Source: Longimicrobiales bacterium (GTDB taxonomy: Bacteria > Gemmatimonadota > Gemmatimonadetes > Longimicrobiales > Gaopeijiaceae). From it: a DNA stretch of 64,000 bases. This document shows, piece after piece, positions 12,791 to 51,975 of this stretch (position 1 is its first letter; each line of letters begins with the position of its first letter). Below the pieces are notes generated by a model that did not search any database, was not told where the DNA came from, and saw only the letters and a list, made by a program, of their open reading frames with translations. The stretch is taken from assembly GCA_028278645.1 (NCBI GenBank), contig JANQDZ010000045.1, positions 1 to 64,000 on the forward strand, written 5' to 3'. Position numbers and translations under genes: made by a program.

Positions 12791-12818
12791 TTCTCCTCCG
12801 TGCTTCGAGTCTCCCCTA

Positions 12819-13204
12819 AAAGGGTGTTGCGAAAAGGGGGCGAGCCCCGTTACGAGCGCCACGGGGCCATATATGAGGCGGGGCTTCGATGGCATAGCCA
12901 TGCGCTACGTCGAGAAGTCCCAACGAAGCAGATGGCCCCGTGCCGTCGAGCCGAGCGGCCTGCCCGCTGGCAGAGTCGCGGTGATCTCCCGCGAGACCGC
13001 CAAGCGAAGCGCAGGCGAAACCCGAAGGGCATAGGGAGGTTGCGGCCGGGCACCGCCGCGGTAGCGGTGGTCGCTGCGTCAGAACTCCTCCCCGATGCTT
13101 CAGCATCGCAATCGTCGTCCTTCCTTCTCTAGCATCCGCAAGCCGGGCACCGCTGCGGAGCAGTGGTCGTGCGGGGCCGCACCCCCTTTTCGCAACACCC
13201 TTTT
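12819..13204. mobile_element. MITE-like element with perfect 23-bp inverted terminal repeats
   Basis: The ends 12819-12841 and 13182-13204 are perfect 23-bp inverted repeats with core GGGTGTTGCGAAAAGGGGG. A T-A step lies at each outer edge (12818-12819 and 13205-13206), as expected for insertion into a TA target, though one base of the left A run is ambiguous. Inside are two related imperfect copies of a hairpin-forming segment (about 13045-13073 and 13142-13169, core GCCGGGCACCG) and no convincing gene. This looks like a non-autonomous element mobilised by an IS630/Tc1-type transposase encoded elsewhere, which is inference. It occupies nearly the whole gap between the GT4 gene and hpf. Confidence 0.65.
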
Positions 13205-13253
13205 TAGCTCTGGCCGCACCGAGAGTTGGCCTGCTTCAAGGGGATAGAAAAAG

Positions 13254-27511: not shown

Positions 27512-29083
27512 CTATCGAATCGTTCCCGCCACCGTGATCTCGCGGCCTTTCCGGATGATGGAGAAGGAAACCTCTTCATCTTCTTCATAGGATCGAAGAA
27601 TCCTGCCCACGTCCCTCTGCTCTTCGAGTTCCCTTCCATCGATGGCGAGGATCACGTCCCCCGCCTGGAGTCCTAATGAAGAGTCATCGTCGACCTCCAG
27701 AACAAGGATCCCGGCATCGGTTGAGAAATACTCCGCCAGGCCAGGATTGAGTTCTGTCAGGTCGAGACCGTAGTACGATCCGGACCCCAGGACGTTGTAA
27801 ACGAAGGGCCTCTCGCCCTCACCACGAAAAGCGTAATTCCCGACGAGGTTCTCAGGGTGTGAATAAACCCGAAGCCGAGGGCTGTCGACGTAGAGGTCTT
27901 CCAGGTCGACTTTCATGTCTTCCAGTGCCTCCAAATCTACATGGAGGTCCTTCAGATGGACCCTCAAGTCTTCCAGGTCTTTCAACTCACCCAGCTCGGA
28001 AAGCTTCAGCTCGACCAGTTCGTCGTCAGGGAATCTGAGGCTCCAAACGCCTTCCCCACCGGGACCCACCTGGAGGATACGCCGGGCTCCCTCTTCTCCC
28101 GGAGTCCCTCCATAGACCAGGACCGACGGCTCGTCGATCTCTGCCGCTTCGAGGGTCACGGTGGCTGGCGCGCTGTCCCGCAGATATCGAACCTCCACCT
28201 CATCTCCGGCTTCCAGTTCTCCCGCCAGGGAGATGAGCCGCTGCACCGGAAGCGACCGGTCGTCATCGAACCCTTCCTCTTCTTCGCCCGGGATCGGGTC
28301 TGTGAGCCGGCGCCCGTTCAAATGGGTGATGATATCTCCTTCCCTGAGCCCAGCCGCTTCTGCCGGCGTGTCCTCCATGACGCTCTGGAGCCTCGCACCT
28401 AGGCGGTCCACCTCGGGCTCCTGAGTTCCGGCCAGGCTGACGCCGAGACGCACCCGGCTCCGGACGGACACGACCATCTCCCGAATCTTCTTTTCTTGCT
28501 CCAGGGCTTGTTGACGGAATTCCTCGGCTAATGCTCTGTATCGAGAGGCATCCCGCTCCCGGAGCCCCTTCGCCTCGGCTAGCTCTGCCCGGGCCCGGGC
28601 CTGCGCTTCAAACTGCAGTGCCCTGGCATCTTCGAAGCTCCGGCGGGCCTCTTCCATCTGTGCCATGGCCTCGGTCTGGGCTTTTTTTCGCTGCTCGAGG
28701 AACTCCCGCTGCGCCATGATCTGCCTCTCCGCGAGGGCTTGTGCGCCTTGCAGATTGGCTTGTTCGAGTTGGGCCTTGGCCTGGGCCAGAGCTTGCTCGA
28801 GATGCTCCAGGCGGGCGGCGTCGAACTCCTGAGCCCCGGCTTGGACCTGGGCCATTTGCTCCCTCGCTTTGGCGAGGGCCTCTTCCAAGCGGGCCAAGCG
28901 CTCCTCTTGGACCTCCTGGAGGCGGAATTCCAGCTCTTGGCGGATCTCCTGTTCCCGCTTTCTCAGCTCCTCCGCCCTGGCCCGTTCCTCGGCCGTCTGG
29001 GCATACAGCGGGCTGGAAAAGGCTGGAAAGAGAACTCCGAGGATCAGGAAAGAAATCCCCAGTTTTTGGCTAAGTCCCTTCAT
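27512..29083 (-). CDS. Exported coiled-coil protein with two PDZ domains
   Basis: The 523-residue product has a signal peptide (cleavage near LYAQT, residue 29). It then has about 170 residues of Ala/Glu/Gln/Arg coiled coil, a PDZ domain (around 215-305: LGVSLAGTQEP, DTPAEAAGLREGDIITHLNGR), and a Leu/Asp-rich stretch with LEDL/LKDL steps (about 355-400). A second PDZ-like domain closes the protein (LGLQAGDVILAIDGREL). There is no protease triad, so it is a periplasmic scaffold or adaptor rather than a DegP-type enzyme. It lies between two carboxylase subunit genes with no obvious link. Confidence 0.8.
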   Translation of the reverse strand: MKGLSQKLGISFLILGVLFPAFSSPLYAQTAEERARAEELRKREQEIRQELEFRLQEVQEERLARLEEALAKAREQMAQVQAGAQEFDAARLEHLEQALAQAKAQLEQANLQGAQALAERQIMAQREFLEQRKKAQTEAMAQMEEARRSFEDARALQFEAQARARAELAEAKGLRERDASRYRALAEEFRQQALEQEKKIREMVVSVRSRVRLGVSLAGTQEPEVDRLGARLQSVMEDTPAEAAGLREGDIITHLNGRRLTDPIPGEEEEGFDDDRSLPVQRLISLAGELEAGDEVEVRYLRDSAPATVTLEAAEIDEPSVLVYGGTPGEEGARRILQVGPGGEGVWSLRFPDDELVELKLSELGELKDLEDLRVHLKDLHVDLEALEDMKVDLEDLYVDSPRLRVYSHPENLVGNYAFRGEGERPFVYNVLGSGSYYGLDLTELNPGLAEYFSTDAGILVLEVDDDSSLGLQAGDVILAIDGRELEEQRDVGRILRSYEEDEEVSFSIIRKGREITVAGTIR

Positions 29084-50902: not shown

Positions 50903-51006
50903 TGCCGGGGGCGGGGTTGAGCTGCGGGGCCTCCCGGCCCTCGCTCGTCTCGCGTGTCAGCCACACTGTTCTTTCATAGCTACCGTGGCGCTCGGCTCGA
51001 ACCCGC
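50903..51006. repeat. tRNA-Leu 3'-end-like repeat, copy A (interrupted)
   Basis: TGCCGGGGGCGGGGTT (50903-50918) resembles the tRNA-Leu 3' end at 51892. It is followed by a 77-bp segment that starts GAGCTGCGGGG and ends GCTCGG (50919-50995), and then CTCGAACCCGC (50996-51006), the rest of a T arm. The remaining bases of the 50848-51151 gap show nothing further. Confidence 0.6.
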
Positions 51007-51151
51007 GGGGGGAGAGAAAACGGAGGACGGCCCCGTGGAACAACCACGGTTGAGCCATCCCCGAACCCCCCACCACCTTCATAACCCCGACATTATTCAA
51101 ATCTAAACTCGGTGGGGAACCAAATGGAAGAACATATGTTTCCGGGATTCG

Positions 51152-51625
51152 TCAACCCCCCGAGTGACCACCGCCCCGCTCTCGGGTGAAGGTAGAATCG
51201 GTTCGATGGGGATCCGGGCCACCGCCAGAAACTTCCCACGACCAGGTTCCTTGAAGGCCAGAAAAAGAAAGGTCGAAGATCGCCTGAGGCATAACTGACC
51301 AATGGTTACCGGGTCCTTGTTGGACGACGTTGGGCGTAGTGAAACCGGCTTCCGTCTCCGTAGTTTCAGACTCCTCGTCGGGCCCCCCGGTCACCGCCCG
51401 ATAGATGAGGTATCCGCCCACCACCACCAGGGTCGCTATCCCCACAGTGGCGCCGGTGGAAGACTTTCCGGTTCCTCCCTGGGGGTCTTCCCCGGAATCT
51501 CCTCCACCGGATCCCGGTTTCAGCGAAGCGATCTGAAGAGAGGCACAACTCGCCTGCGAAAGCACCAGCAGGCAGGTGACGATCACCATAATGGAACGAG
51601 TGAAAGAAAGCTGCCGAGGTTGCAT
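51152..51625 (-). CDS. Small exported or lipid-anchored protein with one membrane helix
   Basis: The 157-residue product has a hydrophobic N-terminal segment (IMVIVTCLLVLSQASC, a poor lipobox at Cys27) and then a Gly/Ser-rich linker. A second hydrophobic helix (VGIATLVVVGGYLIY, about residues 58-75) precedes an acidic C-terminal region. GGAGGG is upstream of the start. No family is recognised. The minus-strand continuation lies against the repeat region. Confidence 0.55.
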   Translation of the reverse strand: MQPRQLSFTRSIMVIVTCLLVLSQASCASLQIASLKPGSGGGDSGEDPQGGTGKSSTGATVGIATLVVVGGYLIYRAVTGGPDEESETTETEAGFTTPNVVQQGPGNHWSVMPQAIFDLSFSGLQGTWSWEVSGGGPDPHRTDSTFTRERGGGHSGG

Positions 51626-51660
51626 CGATCCCTCCCCTTCGAATGCCTTTCCCCTCTCAG

Positions 51661-51718
51661 TGCCGGGGGCGGGACTGAGCTGCGGGGGCTGTCGCCCCCT
51701 CGCTCGTCTCGCGGGTCA
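51661..51718. repeat. tRNA-Leu 3'-end-like repeat, copy B (58 bp)
   Basis: The 58 bases are identical to the first 58 bases of copy C. The first 16, TGCCGGGGGCGGGACT, are identical to the complement of the tRNA-Leu(UAA) 3' end, and the five bases before them (CTCAG) also match. A GGGGGC/GCCCCC hairpin lies inside. The distal half seen in copies A and C is missing. Confidence 0.7.
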
Positions 51719-51729
51719 GCATTCCTGAA

Positions 51730-51840
51730 TGCCGGGGGCGGGACTGAGCTGCGGGGGCTGTCGCCCCCTCGCTCGTCTCGCGGGTCAACGGCGAGGTCTT
51801 GCTTGTGCCCCTCAGCCGCTCGGCTCGAACCGGGTTCGAG
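51730..51840. repeat. tRNA-Leu 3'-end-like repeat, copy C (interrupted)
   Basis: TGCCGGGGGCGGGACT (51730-51745) is followed by a 78-bp segment (51746-51823, starting GAGCTGCGGGG, ending GCTCGG), and then CTCGAACC. The end is a near-perfect palindrome, CTCGAACC-G-GGTTCGAG (51824-51840). The first 58 bases equal copy B. Confidence 0.7.
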
Positions 51841-51891
51841 AGGCTAACCCAGCCCTAGGCCCCCCAGACGAACAGGAGTTTCCTTCCTCAG

Positions 51892-51975
51892 TGCCGGGGG
51901 CGGGACTCGAACCCGCAAGGGATTTCTCCCGGGGGATTTTAAGTCCCCTGTGTCTGCCTGTTCCACCACCCCGGC
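51892..51975 (-). tRNA. tRNA-Leu (anticodon UAA)
   Basis: The 84-nt gene has a 7-bp acceptor stem (GCCGGGG/CCCCGGC, discriminator A) and a GGGGA/TCCCC anticodon stem with the loop CTTAAAA, anticodon TAA at 51941-51939. A long variable arm typical of leucine tRNA and a GCGGGTTCGAGTCCCGC T arm follow. CCA is not encoded. Confidence 0.95.

Follow-up and report, generated by a model that had tools for sequence, protein, structure and literature searches.

The repeats that follow the tRNA-Leu(UAA) gene in the 64,000-nucleotide stretch of DNA analysed here (the window) are probably (probability about 0.7) units of a divergent branch of the RtT superfamily, which occurs at many different tRNA genes, is co-transcribed with them and mimics the T-stem and acceptor end of the tRNA. 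This reading is supported by the anatomy of the units, their covariation, the tracking of their own tRNA, gain and loss between congeners, and profile similarity to RtT of Escherichia coli and other proteobacteria; we infer that an RNA is released and has a function.

On the strand of the tRNA-Leu(UAA) gene the order going downstream is unit C, unit B, an open reading frame of 157 amino acids and unit A (Table 1), with C about 58 bp and B 164 bp downstream of the gene. Read on the plus strand, the tRNA 3' end is TGCCGGGGGCGGGACT, the source sequence for the copies in C, B and A. B at 51661 and C at 51730 both begin with TGCCGGGGGCGGGACT and A at 50903 begins with TGCCGGGGGCGGGGTT, which confirms the 16-base tRNA-Leu(UAA) ends that a preliminary description had placed at all three copies. 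The interruption of A and C at the identical point of the T loop was likewise found as described: the inserts of 77 bp in A and 78 bp in C start with GAGCTGCGGGG and finish with GCTCGG, after which CTCGAACC is met again. Compared with the last 14 nt of their own tRNA-Leu, the tails agree at 13 positions in C and at all 14 in B. The 58 identical bases of B and C were recovered at 51661-51718 and 51730-51787. B had been listed as a copy like A and C, and it does copy the tRNA end, but as a tandem repeat of C with a 69-bp period it is truncated to the 3' half and is without the resumption of the T arm.

Folding, which had been suggested as a check, gave structures better than shuffled sequence on the tRNA strand for B (z -3.65, weaker on the other strand) and C (z -2.9, more exactly -2.86, against -1.2 on the opposite strand); unit A was unremarkable. 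The closing helix P0 described below is absent or rudimentary in A and C. The window copies are a degenerate example, with C devoid of P0, B half a unit and A lying in a pseudo-tRNA-like sequence. A scan of the window for terminators and promoters delivered no signal above chance.

Table 1. Features at the tRNA-Leu(UAA) locus of the window, and loci of a tRNA-Pro variant in several genera. R2 is a covariance model defined in the text; all E-values given here and in the text rest on short calibrations, and the sequences are not independent.
Feature	Position	Strand	Evidence
tRNA-Leu(UAA)	51891..51975	-	ARAGORN; Rfam tRNA 54.8 bits
Unit C: T-loop-like GGTTCGAG, structured insert 51746-51823, tRNA-Leu 3' end copy 51730-51745	51730..51841	-	R2 62.7 bits, E 8.7e-15
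Unit B: partial tandem copy of the 3' half of C, closing with tRNA-Leu 3' end copy 51661-51676	51661..51729	-	R2 25.4 bits
157-aa ORF with lipoprotein-like N-terminus, between B and A	51152..51625	-	no Pfam match
Unit A: T-arm-like sequence split by 77-bp insert 50919-50995; diverged tRNA-Leu 3' end copy 50903-50918	50903..51009	-	R2 40.7 bits, E 5.5e-9
tRNA-Pro 5'-half variant	L061:969-1095, L086:954-1052, L119:1501-1595, L204:3906-4000, L171:399-515		

A full unit, read in the direction of the tRNA, consists of a 5' arm, the sequence GGATGAGAACC-NNN-GGTTCGAG-CCGA, a hairpin P1, the motif GAGAC, a hairpin P2 and, last, the copied 3' end of the tRNA that lies upstream. P1 is GCGG/CCGC around a variable loop and also occurs as GGGG/CCCC, GCGA/TCGC and GCGC/GCGC. 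P2 is the hairpin GAGC-GA-GG ... CC-GCA-GCTC with the variants GAGC/GCTC, GATC/GATC and GACC/GGTC. The 5' arm is complementary to the end of the upstream tRNA, and P0, the helix of the 5' arm with the tRNA-end copy, follows the tRNA, with 16 perfect base pairs for a Cys unit and 11 for a Pro unit. Given this pairing, which tracks the tRNA, P0 imitates the T stem together with a portion of the acceptor stem. For the best units, minimum-energy folding yields P0 and several hairpins, and a unit looks like a tRNA minihelix in which 80-130 nt of additional hairpins stand in for the T loop.

Among 145 sequences 256 double-change cells were counted, versus 59 +/- 6 in shuffled and at most 42 in slid controls, the latter being important because the first alignment was fitted to its model. 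In an alignment of 18 full-length sequences 14 of 25 pairs show double changes, P0 included. Together with the conserved unpaired bases (GAGAC, CGA), this compensatory change indicates long-term selection on structure.

The insert core also occurs at several other loci of the same genome, with two units each at tRNA-Cys and tRNA-Arg(CCG) and further occurrences at tmRNA and at two contig ends, which is far beyond chance. A covariance model of the insert built from 17 units (R1) has matches in 67 of 121 genomes of the window's family, with up to 19 per genome. A longer model built from Gemmatimonadota units only, with no proteobacterial sequence (R2), matches in 54 of 395 genomes sampled across the phylum Gemmatimonadota, 49 of them in the window's own family, and the carriers named by a pattern scan are Gemmatimonadota as well. 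The copies are therefore not confined to the locus of the window but reside at many tRNA genes of the genome and its relatives. Most units are 150-250 bp long and without coding capacity, whereas some long units hold genes (0.76 to 7.7 kb). Many arrays have a tandem spacing of 156-250 bp and contigs often terminate within them, so that the units offer a reason for the frequent contig breaks at these tRNA genes. Exact-pattern matches outside Gemmatimonadota (Leucobacter, Acidobacteria and others) had no adjoining tRNA in those tested and were treated as chance. A weak R2 match on the minus strand at 28075-28229 of the window (17.1 bits, E 0.0085) lies away from any tRNA gene.

Whether the copies abut other tRNA 3' ends can be answered positively: units sit downstream and on the same strand of genes for tRNA-Ser, -Pro, -Arg(CCG), -Cys, -Leu(CAA/UAA) and -Gly(CCC) and for tmRNA. 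Of 150 hits, 91 have an upstream same-strand tRNA or tmRNA gene inside the fetched stretch and are testable. The 3' end matches the last 14 nt of the unit's own upstream gene at 12 or more positions in 72 of these 91 units, and in 68 of the 91 the fit to the own upstream tail is equalled by fewer than 2% of the tails of other tRNAs. Within multi-gene tRNA operons units lie behind Ser and Pro genes only; in this sample no operon unit was found behind Gln, Thr, Ala, Val, Asp, Glu, Trp, Phe, Met, Arg(ACG), Leu(CAG/GAG) or Gly(GCC). The loci were picked for holding units, which biases occupancy figures but not this within-operon contrast. Genome G073 carries five dispersed units with the tmRNA 3' end (L258:8985, L259:5260 and 8519, L260:8378, L261:10697) on stretches in which no tmRNA gene was detected; some of them have at least 150 bp of flank and a terminator-like hairpin in common.

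The preliminary description knew of no named family that matches the repeats. This view has to be abandoned, as their layout and part of their sequence are those of the little-studied RtT RNA (Rfam RF00391), a relation supported by R2 matches to E. coli and proteobacterial RtT. In the E. coli tyrTV operon (rttR) three 178-bp units, called RtT by Rfam, end with the last bases of tRNA-Tyr, AATCCTTCCCCCACCA, and the arm GGGGAAGGAT stands before these. R2 scores these units with 25.0, 21.2 and 18.8 bits and has no further match in 33 kb of tRNA loci from E. coli; for the leu, arg, pro, gly, met and gln tRNA operons of this species neither Rfam nor R2 indicates an RtT-like unit. A third model, R3, built from 19 Gemmatimonadota units and one E. 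coli unit, gave 16 matches in 398 Pseudomonadota genomes. Fifteen of them follow a gene for tRNA-Gln, -Lys, -Tyr or -Ser and reproduce the end of the tRNA in question. Most of these matches are labelled RtT by Rfam, and R2 scores proteobacterial RtT units with up to 47.3 bits (E 6.5e-11). The control phylum Actinomycetota delivered one match in 396 genomes, with no tRNA nearby. Across both phyla with units, 8.74 of 12 P0 pairs are formed with the own partner versus 7.38 +/- 0.21 with shuffled partners. Weak R3 matches in Vicinamibacterales, Jannaschia and Leucobacter had no tRNA there and were discarded.

With RtT RNA the Gemmatimonadota units share the tandem, same-strand arrangement downstream of a tRNA and the closure of each unit with the 3' end of that tRNA (an exact copy in E. 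coli) and a common core, GGATGAGAA...AGGTTCGA...CGAGCG, with GGTTCGA in its middle. The pairing of the 5' arm, which in E. coli joins GGGGAAGGAT to ATCCTTCCCC of the tRNA-end copy, is seen in many Gemmatimonadota units but hardly or not at all in A and C of the window. They differ in the 3' half with P1 and P2, which holds a conserved CCGCGAGACGAGCGAGG block, in their phylum, and in that a single genome can carry them behind tmRNA and numerous types of tRNA. The RF00391 model (cut-off 45 bits) found no RtT in the window or six related loci, and in none of 117 genomes did it exceed the cut-off, the best overlap being 18.5 bits at two true Pro units of genome G112. The units are thus a related variant of RtT and not a member of the curated family. 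An Rfam scan up to an E-value of 1 showed no other named family. The 3'ETS-leuZ and other tRNA trailer RNAs, known from E. coli annotation, likewise derive from sequence 3' of a tRNA within its transcript, but no homology to them was found and R2 is silent at leuZ.

The literature found reports RtT RNA from enterobacteria and Pasteurellaceae only, and a search for the element in Gemmatimonadota returned nothing; tRNA-mimicking elements are more widespread than the catalogued RtT family. A large, covarying, multi-tRNA branch in another phylum that follows the same own-tRNA rule suggests a general kind of element. We propose only tentatively a cross-phylum class of minihelix RNAs with an expanded T loop, selfish or regulatory, which might colonise tRNA and tmRNA genes by copying the T-stem and acceptor end, be matured as false tRNAs by the enzymes that process tRNAs, and pass from one tRNA to the next by swapping the tRNA-derived end while keeping the structured core.

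For E. coli RtT, release from tRNA-operon transcripts and a link to the stringent response are described (Bosl and Kersten 1991, as cited in PMC4986893 and PMC2965389). If Gemmatimonadota units behave like E. coli rtT, each would be transcribed together with its tRNA, and the tRNA-processing machinery could mature it at its tRNA-like 3' end and free a discrete small RNA. Of 71 first units, 24 are located between tRNAs of one operon and 63 are without a preceding terminator-like hairpin, which would place most units within tRNA precursors. The other eight first units, among them those at Cys and Arg in the window's genome, come after an intrinsic-terminator-like hairpin and may therefore rarely be transcribed. 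Since the hairpin precedes the first unit at these Cys and Arg loci (stretches L075:1690-1930 and L076:1990-2050), what is repeated may be a segment made up of tRNA end, terminator and core. In the helices G.U exceeds A.C on the tRNA strand with 15:3 and 20:10, and in 84 of 138 cases the fold of the sense strand is slightly better than that of the antisense strand (p 0.007); both effects are modest and come from sequences that are not independent, and they lend modest support to selection at the RNA level. Spread along and between tRNA genes may proceed by recombination through the common T-arm and 3'-end sequence. How units get the right tRNA end, their processing as tRNA mimics and why only certain tRNAs carry units thus become testable.

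Sites without a unit exist in relatives. The congener G051 retains the neighbourhood of ppk, tRNA-Leu, the 157-aa ORF and an RCC1-like gene but has neither B nor C, and its T arm at site A, TGCCGGGGACGGGAG-TCGAACCCGC, runs on unbroken at the point where the window holds the insert; a covariance-model search of the G051 locus gave no match. As the ORF is syntenic in G051 without B and C, it is not evident cargo. In another genus, g36, the unit that genome G098 carries between Pro(CGG) and Ser(CGA) is absent from G100, in which only 29 bp separate the two genes. Both differences represent either a gain in one genome or a loss in the other. The core identity is 0.536 between different tRNA loci in one genome versus 0.528 for the same tRNA across genera; since it is no higher within a genome than between genera, there was no recent burst, homogenisation inside a genome is weak, and movement between tRNA types is slow. 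In the place of unit A, G051 has a tRNA-like sequence (contig C261, L277:2422-2530) that possesses a T arm and an acceptor stem, whereas its D and anticodon arms are poor, scored by Rfam as tRNA-Sec with 20 bits, below the cut-off; it is either a decayed tRNA or an insert-free unit.

The rival that survives best, although we consider it a good deal less probable than an RtT-like RNA, takes the units as selfish foldback DNA of the MITE, REP or BIME kind without RNA function, with arms that match tRNA ends, passive spread, and similarity kept by recombination or gene conversion. It would account for the presence and absence between congeners together with the exact T-loop boundaries at A, for the tandem arrays and for the five tmRNA-tail units of G073 away from any detected tmRNA gene. 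RtT-like sequences are moreover reported in some enterobacterial BIMEs (PMC2965389), and an RtT-like core lies within a real MITE of the window's genome. BIME and REP sequences are dispersed intergenic foldback repeats like these, but they are not defined by a tRNA-end copy, whereas most testable Gemmatimonadota units follow a tRNA and copy its end. The lack of a recent burst in the core identities, the structural selection implied by compensatory change and conserved unpaired bases, and the G.U bias of the tRNA strand, unexpected for DNA alone, argue against selfish DNA.

The MITE is a 389-bp repeat at 12817-13205 of the window with 26-bp terminal inverted repeats (TAGAAGGGTGTTGCGAAAAGGGGG...). 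This genome has six copies in which both ends were found, about 90-95% conserved per column, and the middle holds the RtT-like core (R2 31.7 bits). The repeat either picked up the core or gave rise to it, which recalls the RtT-like parts of BIMEs. The units themselves are not terminal-inverted-repeat transposons of this type, as their ends vary with the tRNA and constant terminal inverted repeats are confined to the separate 389-bp repeat.

An improbable reading is that the units are attachment-site scars or cassettes of a tyrosine-recombinase element acting at the tRNA T loop, the insert being a phage or island arm and the units stacked cassettes. The copies span the T loop to the 3' end, the classic attB segment, the tRNA types that carry units overlap known integration targets, and some long units contain genes. 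The folded repeats also recall integron attC sites, as the duplicated segment recalls tRNA-integrating islands. Pfam searches and inspection of the open reading frames in long units and flanks, however, revealed no integrase or recombinase beside the units, and the cargo is ordinary and different everywhere. In addition, most units are short and non-coding, the 157-aa ORF keeps its place in G051 without B and C, and such a site has no need of a 5' arm that tracks tRNA identity. Of the two origins considered in the preliminary description, a small mobile or self-inserting element at tRNA ends is upheld as to a small repeat tied to tRNA 3' ends, present at many tRNA genes and variably in congeners; remnants of island insertion and excision are not, as there is as a rule no integrase, transposase or common cargo and the genes between distant units are ordinary. 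Fragments of tRNA ends at these genes are not automatically island scars.

Chance, or simple duplicated tRNA debris with an unrelated common filler, could appeal to the likeness of T arms among tRNAs and to the commonness of tRNA-end duplications, but it is refuted by the spread over 67 of 121 genomes, the own-tRNA rule, the massive covariation and the Actinomycetota control, and deserves practically no credence.

A variant recurrent in several genera has the core joined to the 5' half of tRNA-Pro (CGGGACGTGGCGCAG...GCGCACCTGA) in place of the T arm, with the right flank CCATGGGGTTCAG. It is situated about 200-230 bp upstream of a complete tRNA-Pro gene (Table 1).
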